Of a stretch of DNA of 64,000 bases, positions 42,962 to 59,696 are shown in pieces; the stretch's first letter is position 1; each line of letters opens with the position of its first letter. The position numbers and the translations under genes are program-made. The stretch lies in contig NZ_JAMSLR010000009.1 of assembly GCF_023806485.1 (NCBI RefSeq), positions 1 to 64,000 on the forward strand, written 5' to 3'. Origin of the DNA: Thermalbibacter longus (lineage in GTDB: Bacteria > Chloroflexota > Chloroflexia > Thermomicrobiales > Thermomicrobiaceae). The notes beneath the pieces were generated by a model, which had not been told where the DNA came from, searched no databases, and saw only the letters and a program-made list of their open reading frames with translations.

Positions 42962-43974
42962 GCGCGCTGATCTCGACCCGTACCGCGCTGGCGCTCCTGG
43001 TGCTCGGGCTGCTGGCAACGTTCCCGCTCTGGGGCAGTGCCTACTTCGTGGGGCGAGTGTTCAGTCCCGCGCTTTTCTTCGGCATCGCCGCGCTCAGCCT
43101 CGTCCTACTAGCCGGCTATGGTGGCATGGTCTCGCTCGCGCAGATGACGATCTTCGGGCTGGCCGGCTACGGCTACGGGGTACTCACCGTAACGCACGGT
43201 CAGCCGTGGTGGGTCGGGATCTTGGGCGGGCTCGCGGCCGCGACGCTGGCTGCCTTCCTCTTCGGTCTGGTTGCGGTACGCACGCAGGGCATCTACTTCC
43301 TGATGATCACCCTAGCGCTGGGGATGGTCGTCTACGCGCTCGCCAACCAGAACCGCTCCGTGTTCGGCGGGCATACCGGCATCCTCGGTATCAGGGCTCC
43401 GGAGCTCGGTGGCCACCTACTGACCGAGCGGGCGCTCTTCTACGAGGTCTGCCTGGTGACGGCAGTGCTGAGCTACCTCGGGGTGCGCTACCTCTTGCGG
43501 ACGCCGTTCGGCCTGGCCCTCCAGGCGGTGCGCGACAACCCGCGACGGCTGGCCGCGCTCGGCTACCACGTGGCGCTGCACCGGCTGGCGGCGTTCACCC
43601 TCGCTGGGTTTCTGGCCGCGGTCGGCGGGTTGCTCGGCGTTTGGTACAACGGCGCGATTTCTCCGACCGCTATCGACGTCACCCGGCTGATCAACGTCCT
43701 CGTGATCGCCGTGATCGGGGGGCTGGCCTCCGTCGAGGGGGCGTTCCTGGGCGCTCTGGCCTTCATTCTGGTCACGAACTTCGCCAGCTCGTTCACCGAG
43801 CGCTTCAACACGGTCATCGGGCTCACCTTCCTGGCCATCGTGCTCTTCTCGCCGGAAGGGTTGAGCGGGCTGGCCGCTCGTCCCGTGGAGGTGCTCCGGC
43901 GCTGGCGCGGTAGGAGGTGGCGGGCGAGCGACACGCTGGATGTGCGGCAGGCAGTCGGTCGTCAAGACGAGTGA
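42958..43974 (+). CDS. LIV-type ABC transporter permease (LivM-like)
   Basis: A 338-aa permease with nine to ten TM helices. LivM features: LVLLAGYGGMVSLAQMTIFGLAGYGYG, VAVRTQGIYFLMITLALGMVVYALAN, RTPFGLALQAVRDNPRRLAALGYHV and VIGGLASVEGAFLGALAFIL. It overlaps livH by four bases and is followed 14 bases later by the binding protein. The C-terminal 40 residues are a basic cytoplasmic tail (LRRWRGRRWRASD). Forms the heterodimeric channel with the LivH-like protein. Confidence 0.93.
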   Translation: MSALISTRTALALLVLGLLATFPLWGSAYFVGRVFSPALFFGIAALSLVLLAGYGGMVSLAQMTIFGLAGYGYGVLTVTHGQPWWVGILGGLAAATLAAFLFGLVAVRTQGIYFLMITLALGMVVYALANQNRSVFGGHTGILGIRAPELGGHLLTERALFYEVCLVTAVLSYLGVRYLLRTPFGLALQAVRDNPRRLAALGYHVALHRLAAFTLAGFLAAVGGLLGVWYNGAISPTAIDVTRLINVLVIAVIGGLASVEGAFLGALAFILVTNFASSFTERFNTVIGLTFLAIVLFSPEGLSGLAARPVEVLRRWRGRRWRASDTLDVRQAVGRQDE

Positions 43975-43988
43975 GAGGAGGAGAGTCT

Positions 43989-45428
43989 ATGCTCGATCGG
44001 TACGGTTCTCAGCGGTTGAGCCGGCGCGAGCTCTTGCGACGGGCCGGGCTGCTCGGGCTGGCGATGCCGGTTGCCTCGGGGTTGCTCGCTGCCTGCGCGC
44101 GTGAGGAGGCGACACCGACGACGGCACCGTCCGCGGCGTCCCCGACCGCGGCCCCGGCAGCTACGCCAACGGCGGCCGCAGCTCAGACCCCTGCAGCGGC
44201 GGCCTCGCCCACGGTCACGGTCGGCCCCGCGGCCGGCGAGATCGTCATCGGCGTGCTCGCCACGCTCGAGGGGGCGTTCGCGCTGTTCGGCGACGAGGGC
44301 GTGCGCGGCGTCGAGATGGCGATCGCCGAGTTCGGCGGTGAGATCGGCGGCAAGAAGCTCCGCATCGTGAAGGAGAGCACCGACGCGACGCCCCAGGTGG
44401 CGCGCGAGAAGGCGCGCAAGCTGATCGAGCAGGATCGGGTCGACCTCATCGTCGGGCCGCTCTCGGGCGACGAGGGGCTGGCCATCCGCGACTATGCCAA
44501 GACGGTGCCGGACAAGACCTTCGTCAACGGCACCTCGGCAGCGCAGGACACGACGCTGCGCGACCCCGCGCCGAACTTCTTCCGCTTCTCGACGGACGGC
44601 GTGCAGTGGATGGCAGGGCTCGGCACCTACTGTTACGAGGAGAAGGGCTACCGGCGCGTCGCGACGCTCGGTGAGGATTACTCCTATCCCTACAGCCAGG
44701 TCGCCGGTTTCCTGCTCGAGTTCTGCCGCCTCGGCGGCGAGGTCGCCGCGCAGTTTTGGGTGCCGATCGGTACGCGGGACTACAGCTCGGTCATCAGCTC
44801 GATGCCGACGGACATCGACGCCATCTACGTGATCCTCGGCGGCTCCGACGCGGTCAACTTCCTCCAGGCCTACGCAGACTTCGGTGGCCAGGCGGCTCTG
44901 ATCGGCGGGAGCTCCACGATCGATCAGAACGTGCTGGAGGCGAGAGGGAATATCCGCCAGCGCGTCATCGGCATCCCCGGCGCCGGGCCGGTGGCCGCCG
45001 ATAACCCGGACAAGGCCTGGCAGGACTGGGTCAACGCCTATAAGCAGCAGTTCCCACAAGGGCTGACCACACCGTCGCTCTTCTGCTGGGGGTACTACGT
45101 CAATGCCAAGGGCTTGCTGCTGGGGTTGCAAGAGGTCGACGGCGATCTGAGCGATGGCCAGAAGAAGCTCCAGGAGGCCCTGGCCAAGGTCGAGTTCGAT
45201 GGCCCGACTGGGCATATCGCGCTCGACAAGAACCGCCAGGCCATCGCCAACAACTATGTGACCGAGGTGGCGGAGGGGCCAGACGGCAACCTGTACAATA
45301 AGCTGGTCAAGGTGGTCGAAGGGGTGAACCAGACGCTCGGCTTGCCCGAGGAGCAGTATCTCGCCCTCGGATCGTTCACGCGCGACAACCCGAAGTGCGA
45401 GGACATCCACCGCGTCTTCGGTTCGTAG
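43989..45428 (+). CDS. LIV-type substrate-binding lipoprotein with Tat-like signal
   Basis: A 479-aa periplasmic-type binding protein. The signal LSRRELLRRAGLLGLAMPVA has a twin-arginine pattern and ends in a lipobox (LLAAC), giving a Tat-exported lipoprotein. A 45-residue Ala/Thr/Pro linker precedes the type I fold: IVIGVLATLEGAFALFGDEGVRGVE, KLIEQDRVDLIVGPLSGDEGLAIRD, then domain 2 with VATLGEDYSYPYSQVAGFLLEF. ATG 43989 has GAGAGGAGGAGAG upstream. It delivers substrate to the LivHM channel. The ligand pocket cannot be interpreted from sequence alone. Confidence 0.92.
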   Translation: MLDRYGSQRLSRRELLRRAGLLGLAMPVASGLLAACAREEATPTTAPSAASPTAAPAATPTAAAAQTPAAAASPTVTVGPAAGEIVIGVLATLEGAFALFGDEGVRGVEMAIAEFGGEIGGKKLRIVKESTDATPQVAREKARKLIEQDRVDLIVGPLSGDEGLAIRDYAKTVPDKTFVNGTSAAQDTTLRDPAPNFFRFSTDGVQWMAGLGTYCYEEKGYRRVATLGEDYSYPYSQVAGFLLEFCRLGGEVAAQFWVPIGTRDYSSVISSMPTDIDAIYVILGGSDAVNFLQAYADFGGQAALIGGSSTIDQNVLEARGNIRQRVIGIPGAGPVAADNPDKAWQDWVNAYKQQFPQGLTTPSLFCWGYYVNAKGLLLGLQEVDGDLSDGQKKLQEALAKVEFDGPTGHIALDKNRQAIANNYVTEVAEGPDGNLYNKLVKVVEGVNQTLGLPEEQYLALGSFTRDNPKCEDIHRVFGS

Positions 45429-45444
45429 GGACGAGCGGCTCTCG

Positions 45445-46224
45445 ATGGTCACGGTGCAGGCCACGACAGCGCAGGCGATCGGACACGCCCTGGAGCTCCA
45501 GGGCGTGAGCCGCCGCTTCGGCGGGTTGCGGGCCGTGCAGGACGTCTCGCTCAGCCTGGCTCCCGGTGAGCGCCGGGCGATCATCGGCCCCAACGGAGCT
45601 GGCAAGACGACCCTCTTCAACGTCATCGCTGGCGACTTGCGGCCGACCAGCGGGACGATCCGGTTCTACGGTGACGACATCACGCACCTCCCGCCACACG
45701 ATCGCGTTCGGCGCGGCATCGCCCGAACGTATCAGACGCCGCTCGTCTTTCCGCGGCTCAGCGTGCTCGACAACCTCTATCTCGCTGTGCGCGGGGTTCG
45801 ACCCCGGCGGATGAGCCTCCGGCGCCCGCGGGCAAGCGATGCGGAGATGGTCAGGGCGCGGCAGCTCGCCGAGCAGGTCGGGCTCGGCGACGCGATCCAC
45901 GCGCTGGCGGGCGCGCTCGCTCACGGCCAGCAGCGGCAACTCGAGCTGGGGATGGCGCTGGCGGCGGATCCGAAGCTCCTGCTGCTGGATGAGCCCGCCG
46001 CCGGTCTATCGCCAGGGGAGCGCGAGCTGCTGGCCGGCCTGCTCCTGGGGCTCGACCCGGGGATGACGATCCTGCTGGTCGAGCACGATATGGACGTGGC
46101 CTTTCGCGTGGTCCGGCAGGTGACCGTGATGCACGAGGGGCGGGTCATCGCCGAGGGCACGCCGGAGGAGATCAGCGCCGATGAGGTGGTGCAACAGGTC
46201 TACCTGGGATCGCGCCATGACTGA
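45445..46224 (+). CDS. LIV-type ABC transporter ATPase (LivG-like)
   Basis: A 259-aa ABC ATPase. LivG traits: RRFGGLRAVQDVSLSLAPGE, Walker [39 protein letters not shown], the signature in ALAHGQQRQLELGMAL (AHGQQR rather than SGGQ, normal for LivG), Walker B LLLLDEPAAGLSPGE and the switch His in LLVEHDMDVAF. It starts 16 bases after the binding-protein gene. Together with the LivF-like ATPase it forms the heterodimeric motor. Confidence 0.93.
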   Translation: MVTVQATTAQAIGHALELQGVSRRFGGLRAVQDVSLSLAPGERRAIIGPNGAGKTTLFNVIAGDLRPTSGTIRFYGDDITHLPPHDRVRRGIARTYQTPLVFPRLSVLDNLYLAVRGVRPRRMSLRRPRASDAEMVRARQLAEQVGLGDAIHALAGALAHGQQRQLELGMALAADPKLLLLDEPAAGLSPGERELLAGLLLGLDPGMTILLVEHDMDVAFRVVRQVTVMHEGRVIAEGTPEEISADEVVQQVYLGSRHD

Positions 46225-46319
46225 GCCGCTCTACGCGACGGGCTATGCCGCCTGCGCTCTCGTGCCCCGGTGGTGCCGAAGTACCGGGACGACGGACGTG
46301 CTGCGGGGAAGGTACGACC

Positions 46320-47051
46320 ATGCCTGACCACCTGCTAGAGATCCGCGACCTGCACGCCTATTACGGCCAGAGTCACATCCTGCAAGGCGTGAACCTGACA
46401 CTCGGTCGCGAGCCGCTCGCGCTGCTCGGCCGCAACGGCATGGGCAAGACGACGCTCTGCCAGGCGCTGGTCGGGCTCCTCCCCACGGTGCGGGGCTCGG
46501 CCCGCTTCGACGGACAGGAGCTGATCGGCAGGCGGCCGCATGAGATCGCGGCCGCTGGGGTGGGTTATGTCCCGCAGGGGCGGCGGATCTTCCCCTCCCT
46601 CACGGTCGAGGAGCACCTCCGGCTGGTGTTCCGGCGTGCCGGGGCCGGCCGGGACGGCTGGACACCGGAGCGCATCTTCGAGTTCTTCCCGCGGCTAGCC
46701 GAGCGACGGAGGCACCGGGCCGGAGCGCTCTCCGGTGGCGAGCAGCAGATGCTGGCGATCGGCCGCGCGCTGCTCACGAATCCCCGTCTCTTGATCATGG
46801 ACGAGCCGTCGGAGGGGTTGGCCCCGGTCATCGTCGACCATCTCGTCGAGGTGCTGCGGGGACTCTCTTCGCAAGGGCTGGCGATGCTGGTCGTGGAGCA
46901 ACGGCTGGCCGTGGCGACAGCGCTCGCTGAGCGCATCGCGATCATGGTCACCGGGCGGATCGTGCTGGAGACCACTGCCGCGGCGCTGCTGGCCGATGTG
47001 TCGATCCAGCAGCAGTACCTCGGGGTGAGTCCGCGGCGCGAGGTGGCGTGA
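46320..47051 (+). CDS. LIV-type ABC transporter ATPase (LivF-like)
   Basis: A 243-aa ABC ATPase with LivF characteristics: LLEIRDLHAYYGQSHILQGVNL, Walker A LLGRNGMGKTTLCQAL, GVGYVPQGRRIFPSLTVEEHL, signature LSGGEQQMLAIGRAL, Walker B LLIMDEPSEGLAPVI and an atypical switch position VVEQRLAVAT (Gln in place of His, usual for LivF). ATG 46320 has GGAAGG upstream; the longer frame from 46245 is unlikely. It ends 22 bases before the Tm-1-like gene, tying transport to the enzymes downstream. Confidence 0.93.
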   Translation: MPDHLLEIRDLHAYYGQSHILQGVNLTLGREPLALLGRNGMGKTTLCQALVGLLPTVRGSARFDGQELIGRRPHEIAAAGVGYVPQGRRIFPSLTVEEHLRLVFRRAGAGRDGWTPERIFEFFPRLAERRRHRAGALSGGEQQMLAIGRALLTNPRLLIMDEPSEGLAPVIVDHLVEVLRGLSSQGLAMLVVEQRLAVATALAERIAIMVTGRIVLETTAAALLADVSIQQQYLGVSPRREVA

Positions 47052-47073: not shown

Positions 47074-48318
47074 ATGGCGACAGTCGTCCTGCTGGGCACG
47101 CTGGATACTAAGGGGGTCGAGTACGACTACCTGCGGGCACGTATCCGCGAAGCCGGCTGCGAGGTCATCCTGATCGACGCCGGAGTGCTGGGCCGGCCGC
47201 TCGCGACGCCCGATGTCTCTCGGGAGGAGGTCGCCCGAGCGGCCGGGGCCGACCTGGCTGAGCTGGCTGCCCGAGGCGACCGGGGAGCCGCGATCGAGAC
47301 GATGGCTACCGGCGCGACCGCGATCGTGCTCGACCTGTTCCGGCAGGGCCGGCTGCACGGGATCCTGGCGCTGGGTGGATCTGGCGGCTCGGCGCTGGCG
47401 ACGCCGGCGATGCGCGCGCTCCCCGTTGGCGTCCCCAAGCTGATGGTCTCCACGCTCGCCTCCGGCGACACGCGGCCCTACGTCGGCGCCAGCGACCTCG
47501 CCATGCTCTACCCGGTCGTCGATATCGCCGGCATCAACCGGATTTCCGAGCGCATTCTGACGAACGCCGCGGCTGCGATTGCCGGCATGGCTCGGGCCTA
47601 CGAGTCGTTCCGGCCCAGCGCCGCGAGCAAGCCGCTGATCGCGGCGACTATGTTCGGGGTAACGACACCCTGCGTGACCGAGGCGCGCAGGCTGCTGGAG
47701 GAGCGCGGCTACGAGGTACTGGTCTTCCACGCCACCGGAACCGGCGGCCAGGCGATGGAGGCGCTCGTCGACGCCGGCTACCTAGCCGGCGTGCTCGATG
47801 TGACCACGACCGAACTGGCAGACGAGCTGGTGGGGGGCGTGCTCTCGGCCGGCCCCCAGCGCCTGGAGGCGGCCGGGCGCAACGGGGTGCCGCAGGTCGT
47901 CTCGCTCGGGGCGCTGGACATGGTCAACTTCGGACCGATCGACACGGTGCCGGAGCGCTTTCGCGGGCGTACCCTCTACAAGCACAACCCCACAGTGACG
48001 CTGATGCGCACCACCCCCGAAGAGTGTGCCGAGCTCGGGCGGATCATCGCCCGGAAGCTCAACCAGGCGCGTGGCCCGCTCGCGGTCTTTATCCCGCTGC
48101 GCGGCGTCTCGATGATCTCGAAGGAGGGCGGGCCGTTCTACGATCCTGAGGCCGACCGGGCACTAGTCGAGAACCTGAAAGCGAACCTGCGTCCCGACAT
48201 CGAAGTCCACGAGTGGGATACGGATATCAACGATCCGGCCTTCGCCCGGGCGATGGCGGAGCGGCTGGATGAGCTGATCCGGGCTCGGGCGGCCGCGCGA
48301 GCGGAGGTGCAGGGATGA
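47074..48318 (+). CDS. Tm-1-like ATP-binding domain protein (UPF0261)
   Basis: A 414-aa protein of the UPF0261/Tm-1-like family, named after the tomato mosaic virus resistance protein whose N-terminal part binds ATP. Typical segments: [83 protein letters not shown] and [24 protein letters not shown]. The bacterial function is unknown. It is translationally coupled (ATGA) to the PEP-hydrolase-family gene; the two domains are fused in plant and fungal proteins, so they probably act together. Confidence 0.88.
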
Positions 48319-49157
48319 GCTGGAGGCCGATGACGCGGGCGGACGCGCTGGCTCGGCTGCGCGCGACGATTGCTTCTGGAGGGGTGATCATCGGCGCCGG
48401 GGCCGGGACAGGGCTCTCGGCGAAATGCGCCGAGGCCGGTGGGGCAGACCTGATCATCATCTACAACTCAGGCCGCTACCGCATGGCCGGGCGCGGCTCC
48501 CTCGCCGGTCTGATGCCCTACGGCGACGCGAACGCGATCGTGGTCGAGATGGCAGCGGAGGTCTTGCCCGTCGTCAAGCACACCCCGGTCTTGGCCGGGG
48601 TCTGCGGCACCGACCCCTTCCGGCTGATGCCAGTGTTCCTGCGCCAGCTCAAGGAGATGGGCTTCGTCGGGGTGCAGAACTTTCCCACCGTCGGCCTGAT
48701 CGACGGGGTCTTCCGCCAGAACCTCGAGGAGACCGGCATGGGGTTCGACTTGGAGATCGAGATGATCCGGCAGGCCCATGAGCTCGATCTCTTGACCGCG
48801 CCCTACGTCTTCGATCCCGAGCAGGCGCGGGCGATGACAGAGGCCGGAGCCGACGTGCTCGTGCCCCACCTCGGGCTGACGACCAAGGGGATGATCGGGG
48901 CGAAGACCGCAGTCAGCCTCGACGAGGCGGTCGAGCTCGTGCAGGCGATGTGCGACGCGGCCCGGGCGGTCAACCCGGAGGTCATCGTGCTCTGTCACGG
49001 CGGGCCGATCGCCGAGCCGGAGGACGTGCAGTACGTGCTGGAGCGCACCCGGGGCGTGGTCGGGTTTTTCGGCGCCTCCAGCGTCGAGCGGTTGCCGACC
49101 GAGCGGGCGATGACCGAGAACATGCAGCGCTTCAAGGGACTGAAGCGGCTCGGCTAG
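48315..49157 (+). CDS. PEP-hydrolase-family TIM-barrel protein
   Basis: A 280-aa protein of the phosphoenolpyruvate hydrolase-like TIM-barrel family (PF09370 type). Segments: [94 protein letters not shown] and [20 protein letters not shown]. It overlaps and probably partners the Tm-1-like protein. The enzymatic reaction of bacterial members is not established, and the family name should not be read as proven activity. The GntR gene follows after 106 bases. Confidence 0.85.
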
Positions 49158-49263
49158 ACGCTGGCACCGGCGGCTGGGCCTTGCAGAGCTCGGAGATGGT
49201 CACTCGGTCGTATGTATGGTGTCGGTCGATTCCGGACGCTTGAGGTGGATGGTTGGAGGGAGC

Positions 49264-49992
49264 ATGACGACAGGTTCGAGGCGGGGAACGGCTTCGTCGG
49301 GCGCGGGGGCACGAGCGAACCGGCGGCCCATTGCTCGCCGGGTGCTCCGAGACGAGATCAAGGAGTACCTGATCGAGGCGATCCTTCAGGGCACGTTCAA
49401 GCCTGGGGATCGGATCGTCGAGACCCGGATCGCCCAGGAGCTCGGCGTGAGCCAGGCGCCGGTGCGCGAGGCGCTGCGCGACCTGGAGATGTTGGGCGTC
49501 GTCGTCAGCTCGCCGTTCCGCGGCGCCCACGTCCGCGAGTTCACCGATGAGGAGCTGGTCGAGATCTATCCGATCCGCGCCGCGATCGAAGGCGTGGCGG
49601 CACGCGCCGCTGCCGATCGGATCACCGCCCAGCAGATCCTCCAGTTGGAGGAGCAGATCGACCGCATGCGCGAGGCGTCGATCGACGGCGACGAGGCGAC
49701 CGCGATCGAGGCGGATGTGGCCTTTCACCGGATCATCGTCGAGGCCTCCGGCAACCGGCTGCTGCAGCAGTTCTGGACGAGCTTGAGCCTGGCGACCACG
49801 ACGTATCTGACCTTCACGGCAGTCAAGCGCGCACTCGGTGGGCTGGCCGAGCGTCACGAGCCGGTGCTCGAAGCGCTGCGCGCTCGCGATCCTGATTTGG
49901 CCGAGCAGGTGATGCGCCGGCACATCGAGGAACCGGGACGCTGGGTGCTTCAGGCATTGAAGGGTGTGCAGGCGGAGGAAGCAGCGCGGTAG
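49264..49992 (+). CDS. GntR-family transcriptional regulator, FCD (FadR-type) subgroup
   Basis: A 242-aa regulator. An N-terminal winged helix (LRDEIKEYLIEAILQGTFKPGDRIVETRIAQELGVS, then QAPVREALRDLEMLGVV) is followed by an all-helical FCD ligand domain with metal/ligand residues such as Asp in EADVAFHRIIVEASGN and His in LAERHEPVLEALRARD and MRRHIEEPGR. FCD regulators usually repress catabolic operons and are released by an organic acid. ATG 49264 has GGAGGG upstream. Encoded within the operon it presumably controls, with the dyad at 41985-42012 as a likely target. Confidence 0.9.
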   Translation: MTTGSRRGTASSGAGARANRRPIARRVLRDEIKEYLIEAILQGTFKPGDRIVETRIAQELGVSQAPVREALRDLEMLGVVVSSPFRGAHVREFTDEELVEIYPIRAAIEGVAARAAADRITAQQILQLEEQIDRMREASIDGDEATAIEADVAFHRIIVEASGNRLLQQFWTSLSLATTTYLTFTAVKRALGGLAERHEPVLEALRARDPDLAEQVMRRHIEEPGRWVLQALKGVQAEEAAR

Positions 49993-50034: not shown

Positions 50035-50757
50035 ATGGGGGCGCGACTGATCGATCTGAGCATGCCGGTGCATAACGACATGCTCACCTTCCCACGGATC
50101 GCCAAGCCGAAGCTGGAGATGTTCGAGACGTGGGAAGAGTTCGCCGAGAATATCGGCGCCGCCGAGTACGGTGCCACCTGGCTTACCGCCAGCTACAAGA
50201 TCGAGCTAAGCGACCACGTCGGCACGCACATCGATGCCCGCAAGCACCTCGTCGCCGAAGCACCCGGTCCCGAGGGCATCCCGCTCGAGTACTGCTACGG
50301 CGATGGCGTGCTGCTCGACTTTCGCCACAAGGAGAAGGGCGCTGGCATCACCGCGGCCGAAGTCCAGGAGGCGCTGGACAAGATCGGCTACCGCTTGAAG
50401 CCTCTGGATATCGTGTTGATCTGGACCGGTGCCGGAGCGTACCAGGACGAGCAGCGCTACCTGACCGACCACTGCGGGATGACCCGCGAGGCGACGCTCT
50501 GGCTCATCGACCAGGGTATCAAGGTGATGGGCATCGATGCGATCACCTTCGACCCGCCGGTCTGGGCCATGTTCGAGCGCAAGCAGTTCTGGGAGGCCCA
50601 CCTCGTGATGCGGGAGCGGGAGTACTACCACATCGAGAACATGACGAATTTCGATCAGATCCCCGCGCCCTTCGGCTTCAAGGTAGCGGCCTTCCCCATC
50701 AAGTGGGTCGGAACGACCGCAGCCCCCGTGCGAGCGGTCGCGATCGTCGAGGAGTAG
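50035..50757 (+). CDS. Cyclase-family metal hydrolase (kynurenine formamidase-like)
   Basis: A 240-aa protein of the cyclase (PF04199) family. The metal site HxGTHxD is present in ELSDHVGTHIDARKHL (about residues 60-75). ARLIDLSMPVHNDMLTFPR is the usual start, and MGIDAITFDPPVW and PFGFKVAAFPIKWVG are conserved core segments. Family members hydrolyse N-formylkynurenine, isatin or cyclic amides/lactones. ATG 50035 follows GAAGGAGAGCAG. Six bases separate it from the ATP-binding PEP-synthase-like gene, so the two are cotranscribed; ring opening or amide hydrolysis of the pathway intermediate is a reasonable inference. Confidence 0.88.
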   Translation: MGARLIDLSMPVHNDMLTFPRIAKPKLEMFETWEEFAENIGAAEYGATWLTASYKIELSDHVGTHIDARKHLVAEAPGPEGIPLEYCYGDGVLLDFRHKEKGAGITAAEVQEALDKIGYRLKPLDIVLIWTGAGAYQDEQRYLTDHCGMTREATLWLIDQGIKVMGIDAITFDPPVWAMFERKQFWEAHLVMREREYYHIENMTNFDQIPAPFGFKVAAFPIKWVGTTAAPVRAVAIVEE

Positions 50758-51744: not shown

Positions 51745-52350
51745 ATGCCGACGGTCGACGAGTTACTCGAACGGGCCAGCGCCTGGATCGAAGGCTACTG
51801 GAACGCCGACCACCTGCGGCGGACGCTCGACTGGCTGCTGGTGCTGGCGCCGGACGCTCGGGGCCACTTGAGGCTCGCCGCGCTGACGCATGACATGGAA
51901 CGGGCCTATCCCGGGCCGGACTCGCCGGTGGCCGACGCCCGGAGGCCGATCCCTGACCGTGACTATGACCGGCTGCACCAGCAACGCTCGGCGCGGATCG
52001 TGGCCGACTGGCTACGCGGGCAGGGCGCCGAGCCCGCGCTGGTGGAGCGTGTCCGGGAGCTGATCGAGGCGCACGAGGAAGGGGGTTGGCCGGAAGCCGA
52101 CCTGCTCCAGGCGGCCGATAGCCTGAGCTTCCTCGAGACCAACGTGGAGCTTTTCATCGGATATGCGCAGGAAGGAAAGCATCACTACACGCCGGAGCGT
52201 GTCCGTGAGCGCATGCGCTACATGTACGAGCGCATCAGGCTGCCGCAGGCGCGCGAGCTGGCGAGACCGCTCTACGAGGCCGCCCTGGCGCGGATCGACG
52301 ATGCCTTCGCGCGGCAGGCGTCTCGCCCTGGAAGGGAGAGTGCCGGGTGA
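51745..52350 (+). CDS. HD-domain-like protein
   Basis: A 201-aa helical protein with an HD-like metal pattern: AALTHDMERAYPG (His-Asp), DRLHQQRSARIVADWL, VRELIEAHEEGGW and LLQAADSLSFLETNVELF (Asp). It may hydrolyse a phosphate or nucleotide, or only bind. It lies between the ATP-grasp subunit (9-base gap) and coxG (ATGA overlap), so it is a firm member of the operon. Its size is close to the third subunit of phenylphosphate synthase, but the CBS domains of that protein are not evident here. Confidence 0.7.
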   Translation: MPTVDELLERASAWIEGYWNADHLRRTLDWLLVLAPDARGHLRLAALTHDMERAYPGPDSPVADARRPIPDRDYDRLHQQRSARIVADWLRGQGAEPALVERVRELIEAHEEGGWPEADLLQAADSLSFLETNVELFIGYAQEGKHHYTPERVRERMRYMYERIRLPQARELARPLYEAALARIDDAFARQASRPGRESAG

Positions 52351-52820
52351 TCATCAGCCAGGAATTTACGCTGAACGCACCCCGAGAGCGGGTCTGGGAC
52401 TTCTTTCTGGACGTTCCCCGGTCGAGCGCCTGCATGGCGGGAGTCGAGGAGGTCACCCAGGTAGACGAGAAGACCTACCGGGGGCGCATCCAGGTCAAAG
52501 TCGGGCCTCTGCGGGCGGGCTTCAGCGTGACGGTCGAGCTCTCGGAGGTGCAGCCGCCCGAGCGCCTGGTACTGCAGGTTCAGGGCGATGACCGGGCCAC
52601 CGGAAGCCTGGTGCACGCCGTCGTCACGGCCGCGCTCCAACCGCAGGGGGAGCGCACGCTGGTCAGCTACCAGATGGATCTTTCGATCCGCGGCGCGCTG
52701 GGACGCTTCGGCGGCACCGTGATCCAGGACGTCGCGCGCAAGATGACGGCGCAGTTCGTCGAGTGCGTCGAGCGGTCGCTCGCTGCGCAGGCAGGATTCG
52801 ACGGGCGGCAGGATGGCTGA
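52347..52820 (+). CDS. CoxG-like SRPBCC-family protein
   Basis: A 157-aa START/SRPBCC-fold protein of the CoxG family: FTLNAPRERVWDFFLDVPRSSACMAGVEEV, TYRGRIQVKVGPLRAGFSVTVELSE and VSYQMDLSIRGALGRFGGTVIQDVARKM. CoxG proteins support molybdenum hydroxylases, in CO dehydrogenase by helping membrane association and electron transfer to quinone. This one has no C-terminal membrane helix. It overlaps its neighbours at both ends, which fits a role with the medium/large/small subunits encoded here. Confidence 0.88.
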   Translation: MIISQEFTLNAPRERVWDFFLDVPRSSACMAGVEEVTQVDEKTYRGRIQVKVGPLRAGFSVTVELSEVQPPERLVLQVQGDDRATGSLVHAVVTAALQPQGERTLVSYQMDLSIRGALGRFGGTVIQDVARKMTAQFVECVERSLAAQAGFDGRQDG

Positions 52821-53697
52821 GTTCGCGGTCGTCGAGCCGGCAACTGTCGATGAGGTACTGGATCTCCTAGCCCGGTACGGCGAGGAGGCGAAGCCGGTAG
52901 CCGGGGGTACGTGGCTGGCGCTCGTGTTGCGCCAGGGGCTGCTCTGGCCCTCGCTGCTGGTGAGCCTGCGGCGCGTCTCCGGGCTGGCGGGGATCACGGT
53001 GGACGAGGTGGGGAACCTGCGGCTGGGGGCGATGACCCGTCTTCGGTCGATCGAGACCTCACCGCTGGTGTGGGAGCGGCTGCCGGTCGTCGCCGAGACC
53101 TACCGGGAAGTGGCCAACGTGCGCGTCCGGTACCAGGCTACTGTCGGCGGCAACCTCTGCGACGCGGATTACGCCTCCGACCCGCCAGCGTTGCTGACAG
53201 CGCTCGATGCGCGGGTGATCGCGGTGAGCCAGCGCCGGTGGAGGGCGATCCCGGTGCGGGACTTCATCCTTGGTCACTACCAGACGGTGCTGGAGCCGGA
53301 CGAGCTGGTCACCGAGGTGGTCGTGCCGGCGCTGCCGCCGGACGCCGGTGCCGTCTACGTGAAGTACCGAACGCGCTCGCACGAAGACCGGCCGTGCATC
53401 GGGGTGGCCGCCGTGGTCGTTCCGGACGCCGAAGGGCGCCTGGCGCGGGCGGAGGTGGTCGTCGGCGCGGTCGCCGAGCGTCCCCAGCGGCTGCCGGAGG
53501 TTCTCGACGCCGTGAGGGGCCGCGCGCTCGACGACGCGAGCATCGGCGAGGTCGCCGAGCGCTACGCGGCGGGCATCGATCCACTCTCGGACCTGCGCGG
53601 CTCGGCGTGGTACCGCAGCGAGATGATTCGCGTCTTCGTCGAGCGGGCGCTCCGTGCTGCCCGCGAGCGGGCGCAGTGGGAAGGGAGACAACCGTGA
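52813..53697 (+). CDS. Molybdenum hydroxylase FAD-binding (medium) subunit
   Basis: A 294-aa CoxM/XdhB-like subunit that carries FAD between the iron-sulfur clusters and the electron acceptor. FAD motifs: AKPVAGGTWLALVLRQG (about residues 28-44) and YQATVGGNLCDADYASDPPALL (about 106-127). The C-terminal CO_deh_flav_C domain follows, with KYRTRSHEDRPCIGVAAVVV. It is separated from the large and small subunits (56920-59696) by three genes, an unusual order for this family, but all are on the same strand. It overlaps coxG and the FAH gene. Confidence 0.9.
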   Translation: MAEFAVVEPATVDEVLDLLARYGEEAKPVAGGTWLALVLRQGLLWPSLLVSLRRVSGLAGITVDEVGNLRLGAMTRLRSIETSPLVWERLPVVAETYREVANVRVRYQATVGGNLCDADYASDPPALLTALDARVIAVSQRRWRAIPVRDFILGHYQTVLEPDELVTEVVVPALPPDAGAVYVKYRTRSHEDRPCIGVAAVVVPDAEGRLARAEVVVGAVAERPQRLPEVLDAVRGRALDDASIGEVAERYAAGIDPLSDLRGSAWYRSEMIRVFVERALRAARERAQWEGRQP

Positions 53698-54677
53698 AGC
53701 TCGCGACCTTCGCCATCCCGACACCGGCCGGGCCGGTACGCCGGATCGGCGCGCTGGTCGATGGGCGGCTGGTGGACCTGCAGGTGGCCTACGCCGGTTA
53801 TCTGGAGCGAACCGACCCCGGCTGCGATGCCACACGCCTGGCGGCGGCGCTGCTCCCCGACGATATGGTGCTCTTCCTCGGCAACGGGACACTCGGCCGG
53901 GAGGCGGCGCTCCGGGCGATCGAGGAGAGCGGGCGGGGCGAGGAGGCACTGGGGAGACGGACTGCCTACCGGCTCGAGGAGGTTCGCTTGCTGGCCCCGG
54001 TGCCGCGCCCGCGGGTCATCCGCGACTTTCTGACCTTCGAGGGCCACATGCGCAACGCGAGCCGCGCGCTCGGCCGGGGCGGCGAGATCCCGCCGGCCTG
54101 GTACGAGGTACCGGCCTATTACAAGGGCGACCCCGACACGGTGGTCGGCCCCGACCACGACGTGGTCATGCCACGCTACACCGAGAAGTTCGACTTCGAG
54201 CTGGAGCTAGGCATGGTCATCGGGCGGCGCGGGAAGGACATCCCGAGGGAGGAGGCTCCGAAGTACATCGCCGGCTTCACCATCTTCAACGACTTCAGCG
54301 CTCGCGACCAGCAGATGCGCGAGGCGCCGGTCGGCATGGGGCCGAGCAAGGGCAAGGACTTCGACACCGGCAACGCTATCGGCCCGTACCTAGTGACGCC
54401 GGACGAGATCGACATCAGCGACGTGCGGATGGTCGCGCGGGTCAACGGTGAGGTCTGGTCGGAGGGCCGAAGCGCGGGGATGCACTTCTCCTTCGCCGAC
54501 CTGATCGCCCACGTCTCGCAGAGCGAGACGATCTACCCGGGAGAGCTGTGGGGTTCGGGGACAGTGACGAATGGCTGCGGACTGGAGCTCGGGCGCTGGC
54601 TCCAGCCGGGTGACGTGGTGGAACTGGAGGTGGAAGGGATCGGCGTACTGCGGAACCGCGTCGTGCGCGCGGAGTAA
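53694..54677 (+). CDS. Fumarylacetoacetate hydrolase family protein
   Basis: A 327-aa FAH-fold enzyme. Metal ligands are recognisable: the two Glu in FDFELELGMVIGRRGKDIP and Asp in FTIFNDFSARDQQMRE. KGKDFDTGNAIGPYLVTPDE and the closing GTVTNGCGLELGRWLQPGDVVELE are characteristic. An N-terminal domain of about 100 residues precedes these. Activities in the family include C-C hydrolysis of acylpyruvates, 2-oxo acid hydratase/decarboxylase and lactonase-type reactions in aromatic and sugar acid degradation. GTG 53694 overlaps the medium-subunit stop (GTGA). Confidence 0.88.
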   Translation: MKLATFAIPTPAGPVRRIGALVDGRLVDLQVAYAGYLERTDPGCDATRLAAALLPDDMVLFLGNGTLGREAALRAIEESGRGEEALGRRTAYRLEEVRLLAPVPRPRVIRDFLTFEGHMRNASRALGRGGEIPPAWYEVPAYYKGDPDTVVGPDHDVVMPRYTEKFDFELELGMVIGRRGKDIPREEAPKYIAGFTIFNDFSARDQQMREAPVGMGPSKGKDFDTGNAIGPYLVTPDEIDISDVRMVARVNGEVWSEGRSAGMHFSFADLIAHVSQSETIYPGELWGSGTVTNGCGLELGRWLQPGDVVELEVEGIGVLRNRVVRAE

Positions 54678-54826: not shown

Positions 54827-55123
54827 GTGTTCGTGGTGGTGGCGCACTACTACGCCAAGGAGGGCAAGGACGACGAGATCGCGGAGATCCTCCAGCGGAT
54901 GATCCCGATCTCGCTGGCCGAGCCTGGCTGTCTTGTCTATTATGTCAATCGTTCGCTCGACGATCGACGCAAGTTCCTGCTCTACGAGCAGTACCGGACC
55001 CGTGACGACTACGAGGCGCATAAGGCCTCGGCGGCGTTCCAGGAGAACATCGTCGGCAAGGTGATCCCGATGCTGGAGAGCCGGGTGCCGGAGTTCTACG
55101 AGCTTGTGGAGCCGGCGGAATAG
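54827..55123 (+). CDS. ABM-domain monooxygenase-like protein
   Basis: A 98-aa antibiotic-biosynthesis-monooxygenase fold protein: FVVVAHYYAKEGKDDEIAEILQRM, EPGCLVYYVNRSLDDRRKFLLYEQY and the Tyr/His-containing RDDYEAHKASAAFQENIVGKV. This is the YgiN/LsrG-like pattern, whose members oxidise quinols or isomerise small phosphorylated ketones. GTG 54827 with GAGGAGG upstream is preferred over the frame start at 54749. It lies 149 bases after the FAH gene and 96 before the phosphohistidine subunit. A role on a ring-type intermediate is plausible but unproven. Confidence 0.8.
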   Translation: MFVVVAHYYAKEGKDDEIAEILQRMIPISLAEPGCLVYYVNRSLDDRRKFLLYEQYRTRDDYEAHKASAAFQENIVGKVIPMLESRVPEFYELVEPAE

Positions 55124-55219: not shown

Positions 55220-56923
55220 ATGGCTGCGACGACACCCGAGGTCCAGTTGCCGGTGACTTTCTTCGGCGATGATGAGTTCCCGGTCGAGTGGGAGAGCGAG
55301 GAGGAGAAGCAGCTTCACTGGTGGTGGGATGACCTGCACTGCCCACAGCCGCTCTCGCCGATGTGGTTCGACCTGGGCGGCTGGTGGTCCACCTGCGCCT
55401 ACATGTTCCGCCGCTTCGGCGCGCCCTTCGCGGTGGACTGGAAGGCCAAGCTGGTCAACGGCTACCTCTACACTGCGGTGGTGCCCCCCGACCCTAAGTA
55501 TGCCCAGGAGATCGCTCCCTACTACGGCATGGTCATGCCGATCTACGCGGAGCGCGGGCTCGAGTGGTGGGAGAACCGGCTGCGGCCGGAGATCCTGCGC
55601 AACTTCGAGTACCTGGACAACTTCCCCTATGACTCGGCCAGCCTGCCCGAGCTGATGGTCCTGTTCGAGGACGCGCTCGACATCCAGGAGCGCCACTGGC
55701 GCATCCACTGGATCCTGAACCTCTCGCAGTTCCAGGCCTCGCTGGACTTCCAGAACGCAGTCCAGGAGGTCATCGGTGAGGTGGACAAGGATCTGCTCGG
55801 CCGGATCATGGTCTCGGACGACGATCGCAACTGGGACGCGATCCGCGAGCTGTGGGAGGCGAAGGAGCGGGTCAAGCGGAACGCTGTGCTCACCGAGGCC
55901 TTCGCAAAGGAGACGCCACGGGAGGTTCTGGAGGAGCTCGAGAAGACGGCGGAGGGCCGGGAGTTCCTGCGCTGGCTGGACGAGTACAAGCGCGAGTACG
56001 GCAACAAGGCCATCTACAGCCACGAGTACGTCTATGTGACCTGGCGGGAGAACCCGGCGCCGATCATCGCGGCCATCCAGGGCTACCTGGCGACCGACTA
56101 CTCGTTCCCCGAGGCGCTGCAGCGTCTCCGAGAGGACCGGGACGCGGCGATCCGCGAATTGATGGGCATGATCCCGGCCGACGACGTGCGTGGGCGGGAG
56201 AAGGTGCAGGCGGCGCTAGAGCGCGTGCTCCGGATGATGCCGCTGACGCCGGATCACCACTTCTACATCGATCAGGGCACCTTCGCGCGCATGCGCTACG
56301 TGCTGCTCGCGATCGGCCGGCGCCTGGTCGAGGCTGGCTTGCTGGACCAGCCGGACGACACGATCTTCCTGAAGTACCACGAGCTGCGCGTGCTCGCCGC
56401 GAACCCGTCGGCGATCCCGAACGCGAAGGAGATCGTGCGGGAGCGCCGGGAGGCCCGCGAGCGCGCGATGGCGATCCGGCCGCGCGAGTGGGTCGGCACG
56501 GTCACCCACTGGTCACTGTACGAGGAGCCGTACAAGCAGGGTGTTTGGGGTTACCCCCAGAAGTTCTACGACTCGCTCAAGCGGGAGAAGCGGGAGCCGG
56601 CCGCGCAGGTCGAGGGGCTCCCGGCCTCACCGGGGGTGGTCGAGGGCATCGCCCGGCTTGTCCTCACGCCGGAAGAGCTGGACGTGTTGAAGGAGGGGGA
56701 GATCCTGGTCTGCCGGATGACCAACCCGGCCTGGGTGGTCGCGTTCACGAAGATCGCCGGGCTGGTGACCGACTCCGGCGGGCAGCTCTCTCACCCGGCG
56801 GTCGTCTCCCGCGAGTTCGGCATCCCGGCGGTGGTAGGCACCACCAACGCGACGCAGATGATCAAGACTGGGGCGCGGGTGCGGGTGAACGGCAACACTG
56901 GCGTGGTGGAGATCCTGGGGTGA
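55220..56923 (+). CDS. PEP-utilising mobile-domain protein (phenylphosphate synthase alpha-like)
   Basis: A 567-aa protein whose C-terminal 100 residues form the phosphohistidine swivel domain of PEP synthase: VEGLPASPGVVEGIARLVL, CRMTNPAWVVAFTKIAG and the active-site TDSGGQLSHPAVVSREFGIP with the expected catalytic His. The N-terminal 450 residues are mostly helical and Trp/Tyr-rich (LHWWWDDLHCPQPLSPMWFDLGG) and resemble the substrate-binding part of phenylphosphate synthase and rifampicin phosphotransferase, not the pyruvate-binding barrel, which is missing. The protein should accept phosphate from the ATP-grasp subunit at 50764-51735 and phosphorylate an unknown hydroxyl- or carboxyl-bearing substrate. 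Confidence 0.83.
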   Translation: MAATTPEVQLPVTFFGDDEFPVEWESEEEKQLHWWWDDLHCPQPLSPMWFDLGGWWSTCAYMFRRFGAPFAVDWKAKLVNGYLYTAVVPPDPKYAQEIAPYYGMVMPIYAERGLEWWENRLRPEILRNFEYLDNFPYDSASLPELMVLFEDALDIQERHWRIHWILNLSQFQASLDFQNAVQEVIGEVDKDLLGRIMVSDDDRNWDAIRELWEAKERVKRNAVLTEAFAKETPREVLEELEKTAEGREFLRWLDEYKREYGNKAIYSHEYVYVTWRENPAPIIAAIQGYLATDYSFPEALQRLREDRDAAIRELMGMIPADDVRGREKVQAALERVLRMMPLTPDHHFYIDQGTFARMRYVLLAIGRRLVEAGLLDQPDDTIFLKYHELRVLAANPSAIPNAKEIVRERREARERAMAIRPREWVGTVTHWSLYEEPYKQGVWGYPQKFYDSLKREKREPAAQVEGLPASPGVVEGIARLVLTPEELDVLKEGEILVCRMTNPAWVVAFTKIAGLVTDSGGQLSHPAVVSREFGIPAVVGTTNATQMIKTGARVRVNGNTGVVEILG

Positions 56924-59217
56924 GCGTCGGCCGAGCTGTCCCGATGATCGACGCGGTCGAGCGGGTGACCGGCCGCATCCGGTTCTCCCAGGATGCGAGC
57001 CTGCCGGGCATGCTGCACGCCGCCGCCGTGCGCAGTGTCGTGCCGCATGGACGCATCGCGCGCGTCGACACCGCAGCGGCCCTGGAGGTGCCAGGCGTGG
57101 TCGCCGTCGTGACTGGGGAAGACCTGCGCCGTCTTCCCGGCCTGCGCCCGGTGTACGGCCCGCAGATCGAGGATCAGCCGGTGGTGGCGCTCGACCGCGT
57201 GCGCTATGTGGGTGACATCGTGGCGCTGGTCGCGGCGGAGACACCGCGGGCAGCGCAGGAGGCGGCGGCGCTGGTCACGGTCGAGTACGAGGAGCTGCCG
57301 GCGGTCTTCGACCCGCTCGACGCGTTAGAGCCCGGTGCGCCGTTGCTGCACGAGCTGGAGCCGGAGCGCCCACACGAGGGCACGGCGCTCTACTTCGGCA
57401 TCCGCCCCCAGTTCGGCACCAACTGCTGCAACCTCTTCCGGATCCGGCGCGGCGACGTCGCGCGTGGCTTCGCCGAGGCCGACCTGGTGCTCGAGGAGAC
57501 CTTCCGCACGCCTGCGATCCAGCACGTGGCGATGGAGCCGCACGCTGCCCTGGCCCTCTGGGAGGACGGCCGGCTGACGGTCTGGTCCGGCACCCAGACG
57601 CCGTTCAATACGCGGCAGATCCTAGCCGGGATCTTCGGCCTGCCGGTCGAGCGCGTGCGCGTGGTCGTACCCCCGATGGGCGGCTCCTACGGCTGCAAGG
57701 TCTTCCCGCGCATCGAACCCCAGGCCGCGCTGCTGGCGTACGTGACCGGCCGGCCGGTCAAGTTCGTGCTGCGGCGGGACGAGGAGTTCGTTACCCTGAC
57801 GCGGCATGCCACGGTCGTGACGATCCGGCTGGGGCTGAAGCGAGACGGCCGCATCACGGCGAGAGAGGTACGAGCCTACTGGAACACCGGCGCCTACGCC
57901 GACTGCGGCCCCGACGTGGCCCGCAAGGGCGGCTTCGGCATCGTCGGTCCCTACCGGATCCCGAACGTAGCGGTCGACTCCCGCTGCGTCTACACCAACT
58001 TGCCGCCTGCCGGCGCGTTCCGGGGCTACGCGGTGACCCAGGCCACCTGGGCGTCGGAGTCGATGATGGACCTCGCCGCCGACGCGCTCGGGCTCGACCC
58101 GCTGGAGTTCCGGCTGCGCAACCTCTTGCGCGACGGCGAGACCTTCGCCACCGGCGAGACCCTGCACGACGTGCACTTCGCCGAGTGCCTGGAGCGCGCG
58201 GCCGCGGCGATCGGCTGGGAGGGACCGCAGCGCCGCGAGCTCGGCGATGGCCGGGTGCGGGCCAAGGGGCTGGCCGTGGTGATGAAGGGGATGACCACGC
58301 CCAGCCGCTCCGAGGCGAAAGTGGGGGTCGACCGGAGCGGCCAGGTGACCGTCTACTCCTCGACCGTCGAGCTGGGCCAGGGGGCTCGCACCGTGCTGGC
58401 CCAGCTCGCGGCCGAGGCGCTCGGCGTGCCGTATCAGCAGGTTCGTGTCGTCGACCCCGATACCGACCGCACGCCCTTCGACAACCGCACCACGTCCAGC
58501 CGCTCGACCTACATGATGGGCAACGCGGTGCGGCAGGCCGCGCTGGCGCTGCGCGAGCGGTTGCTACTGGCCGCGGCTCAGCGGCTGGAGGTGGAGCCGG
58601 CAGATCTGGAGCTGGTGGATGGGAATGTCCGGGTAGCCGGCGCGCCGGCCTCGGCGCTCACGTTCGGCCAACTCGTGGAGGCGACCGGGCAGGAGGAGCT
58701 GGTCGAGCACGGGGAGTTTCGCAACCAGGGTGGCCTCGACCCCGACACCGGCCAGGGCATCGCCTCCTCGCACTGGCACCAGGGCGCTGGCGCAGTCGAG
58801 GTCGAGGTCGACACCCGAACCGGCAAGGTGACCATCCTGCACGCGCATGCCAGCGTCTACGCGGGGCAGGTGGTCAACTGGCACACCGCCGAGCTTCAGA
58901 ACCTCGGGTGCATCGTCTTCGGCGTAGGCAGCGCGCTCTTCGAGGAGCTGGTCTACGACCAGGGGCAGCTCGTCAACCCGAACCTCTCCGACTACCTGAT
59001 CCCCTCGTTCCTCGACCTGCCGGAGCGGATGACCCATGACCTGATCGAGCGGCCCGGCGCGGAGATCCACGGGTTGGGTGAGACCGCGTTGCCGCCGATC
59101 CCGGCGGCGGTAGGCAACGCCGTAGCGCGGGCGATCGGCGCGCGGGTGACGGAGCTGCCGCTGACGCCGGAGCGCGTGCTGCGGGCGATCCGGGCACGCG
59201 ACGGGGAGCGAGGCTGA
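56920..59217 (+). CDS. Molybdenum hydroxylase large (Mo-cofactor) subunit, xanthine dehydrogenase family
   Basis: A 765-aa Mo-MCD subunit. Signatures: N-terminal ERVTGRIRFSQDASLPGMLHAA, VAMEPHAALALWEDG, VVVPPMGGSYGCKVFPRIEPQ, the region PPAGAFRGYAVTQATWASE, TVELGQGARTVLAQL, and the catalytic Glu in HGLGETALPPIPAAVGNAV. The active-site loop is AFRGY, not the AYRCSF with selanyl-cysteine/Cys of form I CO dehydrogenase, so CO oxidation is unlikely and hydroxylation of an organic ring or aldehyde more likely. GTG 56920 overlaps the upstream stop (GTGA); ATG 56944 is an alternative. Couples to the small subunit by a 1-base overlap. Confidence 0.92.
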   Translation: MSVGRAVPMIDAVERVTGRIRFSQDASLPGMLHAAAVRSVVPHGRIARVDTAAALEVPGVVAVVTGEDLRRLPGLRPVYGPQIEDQPVVALDRVRYVGDIVALVAAETPRAAQEAAALVTVEYEELPAVFDPLDALEPGAPLLHELEPERPHEGTALYFGIRPQFGTNCCNLFRIRRGDVARGFAEADLVLEETFRTPAIQHVAMEPHAALALWEDGRLTVWSGTQTPFNTRQILAGIFGLPVERVRVVVPPMGGSYGCKVFPRIEPQAALLAYVTGRPVKFVLRRDEEFVTLTRHATVVTIRLGLKRDGRITAREVRAYWNTGAYADCGPDVARKGGFGIVGPYRIPNVAVDSRCVYTNLPPAGAFRGYAVTQATWASESMMDLAADALGLDPLEFRLRNLLRDGETFATGETLHDVHFAECLERAAAAIGWEGPQRRELGDGRVRAKGLAVVMKGMTTPSRSEAKVGVDRSGQVTVYSSTVELGQGARTVLAQLAAEALGVPYQQVRVVDPDTDRTPFDNRTTSSRSTYMMGNAVRQAALALRERLLLAAAQRLEVEPADLELVDGNVRVAGAPASALTFGQLVEATGQEELVEHGEFRNQGGLDPDTGQGIASSHWHQGAGAVEVEVDTRTGKVTILHAHASVYAGQVVNWHTAELQNLGCIVFGVGSALFEELVYDQGQLVNPNLSDYLIPSFLDLPERMTHDLIERPGAEIHGLGETALPPIPAAVGNAVARAIGARVTELPLTPERVLRAIRARDGERG

Positions 59218-59696
59218 TGGAGCAGACGATCACGGTCGAGCTGAACGGCGAGCGACGGGCGCTCACCGTGCGGACGGATGCGACTCTCCTGGAGGTGCTG
59301 CGGGATGGGTGCGGGCTGGCCAGCGTGCGCGAGACCTGCGGGATCGGCATCTGCGGAGCGTGCACCGTGCTGGTGGACGGTGTGCCGATCAGCAGTTGCC
59401 TGCTGCTCGCGCCGCTGGCCGACGGCTGCCGGATTACCACCGTCGAGGGGCTGTCGCGCGGCGACGAGCTGCACCCGGTGCAGCGGGCCTTCATCGATCA
59501 GATGGCCTTCCAGTGCAGCTACTGCACGCCGGGCATGGTGTTGAGCGCGGTCGCGCTGCTGGCGGAGCGCCCGGATCCGAGCCCGGAGGAGATCGCCGAG
59601 TACCTGGCCGGCAACCTCTGCCGCTGCGGCTCCTACCCGCGCATCCTGGCGGCCATCTCCGACGCCGCGCGCCTGATGCGCCAGGCAAGCCGCTGA
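59217..59696 (+). CDS. Molybdenum hydroxylase iron-sulfur (small) subunit
   Basis: A 159-aa CoxS/XdhC-like protein with two [2Fe-2S] domains. The plant-ferredoxin-type cluster is in CGIGICGACTVLVDGVPISSC, preceded by RETCGIG; the second, helical, cluster is in QCSYCTPGMVL and NLCRCGSYPRI. It moves electrons from the Mo site in the large subunit to FAD in the medium subunit. ATG 59217 shares one base with the preceding stop. It is the last gene of the island and is followed by a strong terminator-like hairpin at 59741-59770. Confidence 0.94.
   Translation: MEQTITVELNGERRALTVRTDATLLEVLRDGCGLASVRETCGIGICGACTVLVDGVPISSCLLLAPLADGCRITTVEGLSRGDELHPVQRAFIDQMAFQCSYCTPGMVLSAVALLAERPDPSPEEIAEYLAGNLCRCGSYPRILAAISDAARLMRQASR

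Follow-up and report, generated by a model that had tools for sequence, protein, structure and literature searches.

The first 64,000 positions of contig C80 of Thermalbibacter longus (genome size 3.6 Mb), hereafter referred to as the window, carry a gene cluster that pairs a predicted two-component small-molecule dikinase with a molybdenum hydroxylase of the xanthine oxidase family. Based on open reading frames (ORFs) and Pfam matches, it forms a single co-directional unit on the plus strand, extending from the start of an ATP-binding cassette (ABC) importer at 42092 to the end of the small hydroxylase subunit at 59696. We propose, at about an even chance, that this unit is a catabolic operon whose principle is phosphate tagging: a hydroxylated (hetero)aromatic compound would be phosphorylated, hydroxylated, dephosphorylated and then subjected to hydrolytic ring opening.

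A predicted dikinase and its linkage to molybdenum hydroxylases

The genes starting at 50764 and 55220 are predicted to encode a two-component dikinase with the layout of HpeHI, CreHI and PpsAB, split enzymes that transfer phosphate from ATP to a phenolic hydroxyl group via a histidine in a T/SxxGGxxxH motif (PMC12167813). The 323-residue PPDK_N protein represents the ATP-grasp half, and the sole Pfam domain of its 567-residue partner, below called the H subunit, is a C-terminal mobile domain of the phosphoenolpyruvate (PEP)-utilizing type. Its swivel motif, 517-TDSGGQLSH-525 (T517 D518 x G520 G521 xxx H525), conforms to T/SxxGGxxxH and includes the phosphorylatable histidine. In an alignment of 33 sequences from the Thermomicrobiota, Chloroflexota, Actinomycetota, Bacillota, Pseudomonadota and Spirochaetota, the D, the GG pair and the H are invariant (33/33 rows), and the T is found in at least 90% of the rows. 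In the structural model of the H subunit (predicted local distance difference test score 93), residues 18-567 superimpose on residues 315-867 of rifampin phosphotransferase, which lie beyond its ATP-grasp region (Z 27.9, root-mean-square deviation 3.9, 488 aligned residues, 21% identity), and Foldseek matched the model to 5fbt at E 4e-20. Chains of pyruvate phosphate dikinase (PPDK) and enzyme I correspond to the model at the swivel domain only. Among the Foldseek and VIA matches listed, no solved relative except rifampin phosphotransferase extends along most of the H subunit, although absence from these lists proves nothing.

The domain content also bears on a more conventional interpretation, in which the two proteins would act as a PEP synthase in two pieces, recycling the pyruvate that the FAH-family hydrolase of the cluster sets free, and would have no direct connection with the molybdenum enzyme. 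Pyruvate is a frequent product of FAH-family enzymes, and NCBIfam PEP-synthase models match both genes, albeit all below their cut-offs. However, Pfam detects PPDK_N and the mobile domain only, and a plain PEP synthase is unlikely because the C-terminal PEP/pyruvate-binding domain was not found in either protein. Moreover, the model follows the rifampin-binding part of rifampin phosphotransferase in addition to its swivel, and the linkage to molybdenum hydroxylases described below is strong. We thus consider this interpretation very improbable.

By sequence, the H subunits of the window type appear to constitute a clade separate from the phenolic kinases PpsA and CreH-like, whose labels rest on gene neighbourhood. 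In a quick tree, all 33 fall into one clade, with a support of 100 in the Shimodaira-Hasegawa-like approximate likelihood ratio test (SH-aLRT), and PpsA and the CreH-like protein lie apart across long branches. The window protein is 25.8% identical to Azoarcus PpsA and 26.6% to the CreH-like protein, compared with 43.2% between these two. Its separation from Hpe-type enzymes is likewise judged from PpsA and the CreH-like protein, the two comparison sequences of this tree. Among 385 alphaproteobacterial genomes, a single one (G168) contains the dikinase at E <= 1e-100.

An H-subunit scan of 84,980 species genomes yielded 238 relatives. The best 80 of them, referred to as scan loci, are a non-random sample of nearest relatives and include many short contigs, so that presence counts are lower bounds. 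A homologue of the large hydroxylase subunit is encoded in 55 of the 80 scan loci, in 51 cases within 5 kb of the H subunit and in 52 on the same strand. It is found in 26/32 of the loci of at least 21 kb and in 47/71 when the nine Thermomicrobia loci are removed. As a control, we took 20 loci centred on less closely related dikinase paralogues from the class of the window; here, the large subunit was detected three times and never within 5 kb.

In several anaerobe groups, this dikinase is accompanied by a molybdenum hydroxylase of a different lineage (L094, L106, L142, L148 and L151, from Moorella stamsii, Treponema, Oscillibacter, Lachnospiraceae and other Bacillota). The Moorella dikinase locus additionally contains PGK-like, GAPDH-like and lactate-racemase-like genes. 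Readings as inositol, sugar or lactate fermentation, suggested by transaldolase, short-chain dehydrogenase/reductase, aldehyde dehydrogenase, PGK-like and LarA-like genes in other clusters, were dropped, as these genes lie outside the cluster of the window. A family of ~300 residues whose sole match, to PEPCK_ATP, falls short of the cut-off (18.5 against 26.5 bits) is found in dikinase clusters at L094 (13210-14160) and 23 other loci; family counts from our crude gene finder, which reports antisense ORFs in GC-rich DNA, serve as leads only. Conversely, plasmid pPABY2 of Salipiger abyssi (L188) carries an aromatic-type set with overlapping gene content, comprising SRPBCC, molybdenum hydroxylase, FAH, quinol monooxygenase and dienelactone hydrolase genes, without a dikinase.

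Class and relatives of the molybdenum hydroxylase

The region 56920-59696 encodes the large and small subunits of a molybdenum hydroxylase of the xanthine oxidase family. Across the large, small and FAD subunits, the domains MoCoBD_1/2, Ald_Xan_dh_C, Fer2, Fer2_2 and FAD_binding_5 all score above cut-off, and the catalytic GLGE is in place; the large subunit features PPAGAFRGYAVTQ from residue 362 and GLGETALP from residue 718. As stated in the original prediction, which was made from the sequence of the window, the enzyme is not a CO dehydrogenase: it has AFRGYAV at the place aligned with the form I loop AYRCSFR. A genuine form I enzyme with AYRCSFR and adjacent small-subunit and flavin adenine dinucleotide (FAD)-subunit genes is encoded on the same contig (G000:C80, about 95647-97905, minus strand; L056, 15626-17968) and lies far from the window large subunit in the tree.

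The original prediction had further taken the AFRGY loop and the dispersed gene order as pointers to a new substrate specificity tied to the interleaved genes. Among the 55 scan loci with a large subunit, the best copy shares 45% identity or more with that of the window in 21 (type A) and falls short of this value in 34 (type B). Every type-A loop is GA(F/Y)RGY, most of those in type B are AxRGF, and the neighbouring clades generally have AxRGF/AxRGY, which led us to reject AFRGY as a specificity signature. Because AFRG(Y/F) is ordinary in the family and AFRGY/AYRGY is type-A-wide, the loop is informative solely in setting the enzyme apart from CO dehydrogenase. The dispersed order itself is real, with the FAD-subunit and CoxG genes located 3-4 kb upstream of the large- and small-subunit genes, behind the FAH, ABM and phosphohistidine genes. 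However, among the 14 type-A loci measured, a gap of 3.2-3.6 kb between the FAD and large-subunit genes was seen in three Thermomicrobia loci, whereas it ranged from -21 to 239 bp in the other 11. It is a local arrangement of the Thermomicrobia and was rejected as a general signature. The tie to the interleaved genes holds on different evidence, since the dikinase, cyclase, FAH and ABM genes recur with related molybdenum hydroxylases even where nothing is interleaved.

The placement of the large subunit was assessed in a quick tree of 60 rows, with SH-aLRT support, without bootstrap and with few characterised anchors. Type A (17 rows) forms a single clade (SH-aLRT 99), and type B falls into two further clades. 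The sister of type A is a plasmid-encoded enzyme of Arthrobacter crystallopoietes without a nearby dikinase. The locus on plasmid pLDW-10 of this species (L080, 14075-17792), which provides the closest large subunit outside dikinase clusters (48% identity), also contains asparaginase, polysaccharide-deacetylase-like, SRPBCC and molybdenum cofactor genes. Among the characterised enzymes, 4-hydroxybenzoyl-CoA reductase is nearest, on a long branch, and provides the closest solved structure (1rm6_A, 348 bits), although none of the solved relatives is near enough to indicate a substrate; quinoline 2-oxidoreductase and 6-hydroxypseudooxynicotine dehydrogenase are located elsewhere in the tree. Within this small set of anchors, the large subunit thus belongs to no characterised clade of known substrate, a position compatible with the suggested specificity unlike that of characterised enzymes. 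Taken together, the original prediction appears partly right in expecting a separate specificity connected with the interleaved genes, on grounds other than those given, and it missed the two-component dikinase, the exchange of phosphatases described below and the breadth of the system.

The proximity to 4-hydroxybenzoyl-CoA reductase raises the question of whether the cluster could combine a dehydroxylase of this type with a phenylphosphate synthase in an anaerobic-style degradation of phenol. Apart from the match to 1rm6_A, this scenario draws on the resemblance of the dikinase to PpsAB: the domain split is the same, and the two subunits are 25.8% and 39% identical to those encoded beside ppcBDAG in Azoarcus sp. 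KH32C. However, the window large subunit reaches 517.2 bits with the reductase equivalog TIGR03194, whose cut-off is 994.55. The FAD subunit of 4-hydroxybenzoyl-CoA reductase contains an extra 4Fe-4S loop, whereas that of the window has 2 Cys in 294 residues and lacks this loop, with 1rm6_B matched in two stretches (best 3-117). In addition, the dikinase belongs to another clade, and neither the phenylphosphate carboxylase that is the partner of PpsAB in Azoarcus (ppcBDAG) nor UbiD or a CoA ligase was found in the cluster. Given these failed tests, we regard phenol degradation of this kind as extremely improbable.

Phosphatase-like genes and the proposed order of steps

Profile searches of all ORFs in the scan loci identified an HD family in 9/80 and a histidine-phosphatase family in 21/80 loci, with no locus containing both. 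Type A (21 loci) comprises 7 loci with HD, 10 with histidine phosphatase, none with both and 4 with neither, three of the latter being contigs under 7 kb; when type A is restricted to the 18 loci that are 13 kb or longer, 17 contain exactly one phosphatase-like gene. The HD gene is found in the Thermomicrobia and the histidine phosphatase in most other type-A clusters. The occurrence of two unrelated phosphatase-like families in the same place is, in our view, the best genomic sign of a probable phosphate-ester removal, with weaker force for type B. The HD protein scores above the PF01966 cut-off (Table 1), and its metal-binding residues H49, D50, H78, H110 and D125 are invariant in 10 rows. 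Its model most closely resembles HD hydrolases of the YpgQ/YedJ type (Z 13-15), with no Foldseek match at E <= 0.001. The histidine phosphatases mostly contain RHG/RHA and a later THSP.

In the pathway that we propose, the ABC importer would take up a hydroxylated aromatic or heteroaromatic compound. The dikinase, whose domains and catalytic histidine are evident, would transfer the beta-phosphate of ATP via His525 to a phenolic or enolic hydroxyl group. The molybdenum hydroxylase, aided by CoxG, would then introduce water-derived oxygen at a ring carbon, and the HD protein or histidine phosphatase would take the phosphate off. Subsequently, the cyclase-family metalloenzyme may open the ring by hydrolysis and the FAH protein cleave the resulting oxo-acid, with the ABM protein possibly acting as an accessory oxygenase or isomerase.

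The order of these steps is suggested by analogy with the Hpe and Cre systems. In the former, the carboxylase accepts the phosphorylated ketone only and HpeD strips the phosphate afterwards (PMC9618137). Represented by HpeHI and HpeD of Rhodococcus rhodochrous GD02 (PMC12167813, PMC9618137), this system resembles that of the window in its ATP-grasp protein, its substrate/swivel protein with T/SxxGGxxxH and an RPH-like fold, and its dedicated phosphatase; it differs in that it combines a biotin carboxylase with a NagD-like phosphatase, instead of a molybdenum hydroxylase with an HD protein or histidine phosphatase. For 4-cresol, creD is listed as a phosphohydrolase gene beside the creHI dikinase genes (PMC7764795). 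There, too, the dikinase pair lies beside an oxidising enzyme and a phosphohydrolase, and an HD gene occupies the creD position in a cre-like cluster of R. ruber (L084; named by gene order). However, oxidation in the Cre system involves a P450, the H subunits are the distant relatives noted above and the HD proteins are dissimilar in sequence.

Several observations weigh against phosphate tagging as outlined here. The order of the steps is not readable from the genes. No large subunit is encoded in the stretch in 25 of the 80 scan loci, long ones included (L116, L127, L140, L143, L144 and L154); all 14 such genomes searched whole have some large-subunit homologue, which is a weak indication. 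The dikinase and large-subunit trees split differently, with type A and type B partners mixed in the dikinase subclades. Among the 34 type-B loci, six contain a histidine phosphatase and none an HD gene. Furthermore, Z values near 14 are easily reached by helical folds, making those of the HD model moderate, and homology of the HD protein to CreD was rejected: no alignment was obtained with the HD gene that takes the place of creD in R. ruber, and the match to another HD gene there reached only E 3e-4.

An identical gene set would serve a pathway that starts with hydroxylation. In this case, the molybdenum hydroxylase would produce a lactam, lactone or hydroxy-heteroaromatic compound, phosphorylation by the dikinase would activate its ring and the cyclase would exploit this activation for hydrolysis, leaving the phosphatase a proof-reading function or a late step. 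Consistent with this order, the cyclase, with its metal motif, is the best kept gene (91% identity to its Thermomicrobium roseum counterpart, compared with 59% for the ATP-grasp subunit), and its best solved relative, isatin hydrolase, is a ring-amide hydrolase. Yet, Hpe adds the phosphate first (PMC9618137, PMC12167813), and the dedicated phosphatase-like gene of the longer type-A loci suits the removal of a tag better than phosphate release by ring opening. Hydroxylation as the first step seems unlikely to us. Thermogemmatispora-type clusters contain a second cyclase-like gene without HxGTHxDxxxH (L097 19109-19819 and its equivalents in L098-L102).

With similarly low probability, the cluster could encode a hydroxypyridine pathway like that of the 3-hydroxypyridine (HpdA) cluster of Ensifer adhaerens HP1, in which case the dikinase pair would in some way be needed for the activity of the molybdenum enzyme. 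The molybdenum dehydrogenase of this organism reportedly consists of four components, SRPBCC being a subunit of its own, and is reported to require a PEP-utilizing protein and a PPDK. The genome of T. longus has a single gene of the M29 family, to which we take the Fe(II) dioxygenases of 2,5-dihydroxypyridine pathways to belong, and it lies on another contig (C67). In the cluster itself, no Fe(II) dioxygenase gene was named. In Agrobacterium sp. DW-1, the degradation of 3-hydroxypyridine passes through 2,5-dihydroxypyridine and involves an Fe(II) dioxygenase (PMC6525221), in contrast to the cyclase/FAH/ABM set of the window. For the Ensifer enzyme, a CoxG homologue has been proposed as an anchor (PMC11962113).

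Apart from the Ensifer study, our literature search retrieved no paper linking a dikinase to a molybdenum hydroxylase, and we do not present the link as unpublished. If the account of the Ensifer cluster is right, the pairing has a precedent, and what is new lies in the separate clade of dikinases and how widely it occurs, in the phosphatase exchange and in the cyclase/FAH/ABM ring-opening set.

Layout, conservation and implications of the cluster

The genes of the cluster follow each other in the order given in Table 1. Since several of them overlap by 1-8 bp (HD/CoxG, CoxG/FAD, FAD/FAH, phosphohistidine/large and large/small), the arrangement fits a single transcript. The overlap between the 3' end of the phosphohistidine gene and the start of the large-subunit gene amounts to 4 bp, whereas T. 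roseum has a 402-bp gap without an annotated gene at this place (L079, 18696-19097). The UPF0261 and PEP_hydrolase-like proteins (47074-49157), each of which presumably corresponds to one half of Tm-1 of plants, recur with the cluster (Table 1). Directly downstream of the cluster, on the minus strand (60997-63837), lie FdhE-like, NrfD-like and 4Fe-4S dicluster genes, a formate dehydrogenase set that also adjoins the cluster of T. roseum.

Table 1. Genes of the cluster in the window, with positions and basis of assignment.
Feature	Position	Strand	Basis and remarks
Branched-chain-amino-acid-type ABC importer: two permeases, binding protein (43989-45428), two ATPases	42092..47051	+	ORFs, Peripla_BP_6; same position in T. 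roseum and relatives
UPF0261 (Tm-1-like) protein	47074..48318	+	Pfam; present in 17/80 scan loci
PEP_hydrolase-like TIM-barrel protein	48315..49157	+	Pfam; present in 15/80 scan loci
GntR/FCD-family regulator	49216..49992	+	Pfam
Putative cyclase (PF04199), metal motif HVGTHIDARKH intact; proposed ring-opening hydrolase	50041..50757	+	Pfam, motif; best solved relative isatin hydrolase, 36.5 bits
Predicted ATP-grasp subunit of two-component dikinase (PPDK_N; HpeI/CreI/PpsB-like), 323 aa	50764..51735	+	Pfam; 39% identity to Azoarcus sp. KH32C subunit beside ppcBDAG
HD-domain protein, proposed phosphatase	51745..52350	+	Pfam HD, 24.3 bits (cut-off 22); alignment; model
CoxG/SRPBCC protein	52347..52820	+	Pfam
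FAD (medium) subunit, 294 aa, 2 Cys, without 4Fe-4S loop	52813..53697	+	Pfam
FAH-family hydrolase	53694..54677	+	Pfam; best solved relative 2,4-diketo-3-deoxyrhamnonate hydrolase
ABM-domain small protein; precise start uncertain	54827..55123	+	Pfam
Predicted dikinase substrate-binding and swivel (phosphohistidine) subunit, 567 aa	55220..56923	+	Pfam PEP-utilizers, alignments, model
Molybdenum-pterin (large) subunit, 765 aa, GTG start	56920..59217	+	Pfam, motifs, tree
[2Fe-2S] (small) subunit, 159 aa	59217..59696	+	Pfam

The conservation of the gene set is beyond chance. The phosphohistidine protein has matches at E <= 1e-20 in 62 of the 158 genomes of the class to which T. longus belongs, and in 11 of them, counting the query genome, the gene is found at 75-100% identity. 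All 18 genes are present in order in two genomes (G116, G117), and all except CoxG in the stretches read from four others (G118, G120, G122, G124); the loci of G115, G119 and G123 are contig ends. In a genome of another family (G151), the part from the cyclase to the small subunit is kept, with the FAH match in two pieces, and the importer, UPF0261, TIM-barrel and GntR genes were not found in the 20-kb stretch taken. In T. roseum DSM 5159, the cluster (TRD_RS09660-09580) is located on a 918-kb plasmid, with the order kept and CoxG not annotated; its dikinase genes are TRD_RS09615 and TRD_RS09590. Next to the cyclase, the TIM-barrel (90%) and FAH (86%) proteins show the highest identities to their T. 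roseum counterparts; the lowest are those of the ATP-grasp and FAD (58%) subunits.

More tentatively, these systems may represent a third, so far undescribed branch of two-component small-molecule dikinases, associated with molybdenum hydroxylases of at least three lineages in several phyla, including aerobes and anaerobe groups, in which the molybdenum enzyme would act on a phosphorylated substrate and interchangeable phosphatases would then remove the phosphate. If this is true, phosphate would serve as a handle for molybdenum hydroxylation. The linkage provides a testable explanation for the presence of a dikinase next to a molybdenum hydroxylase, and the exchange of phosphatases may be useful as a genomic marker of phosphorylated intermediates. 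T. roseum DSM 5159, as a named strain carrying the cluster, offers an easy entry point. For the many genes of this kind that bear generic annotations such as xanthine dehydrogenase or PEP synthase, the linkage predicts that they share one catabolic logic, phosphate tagging.

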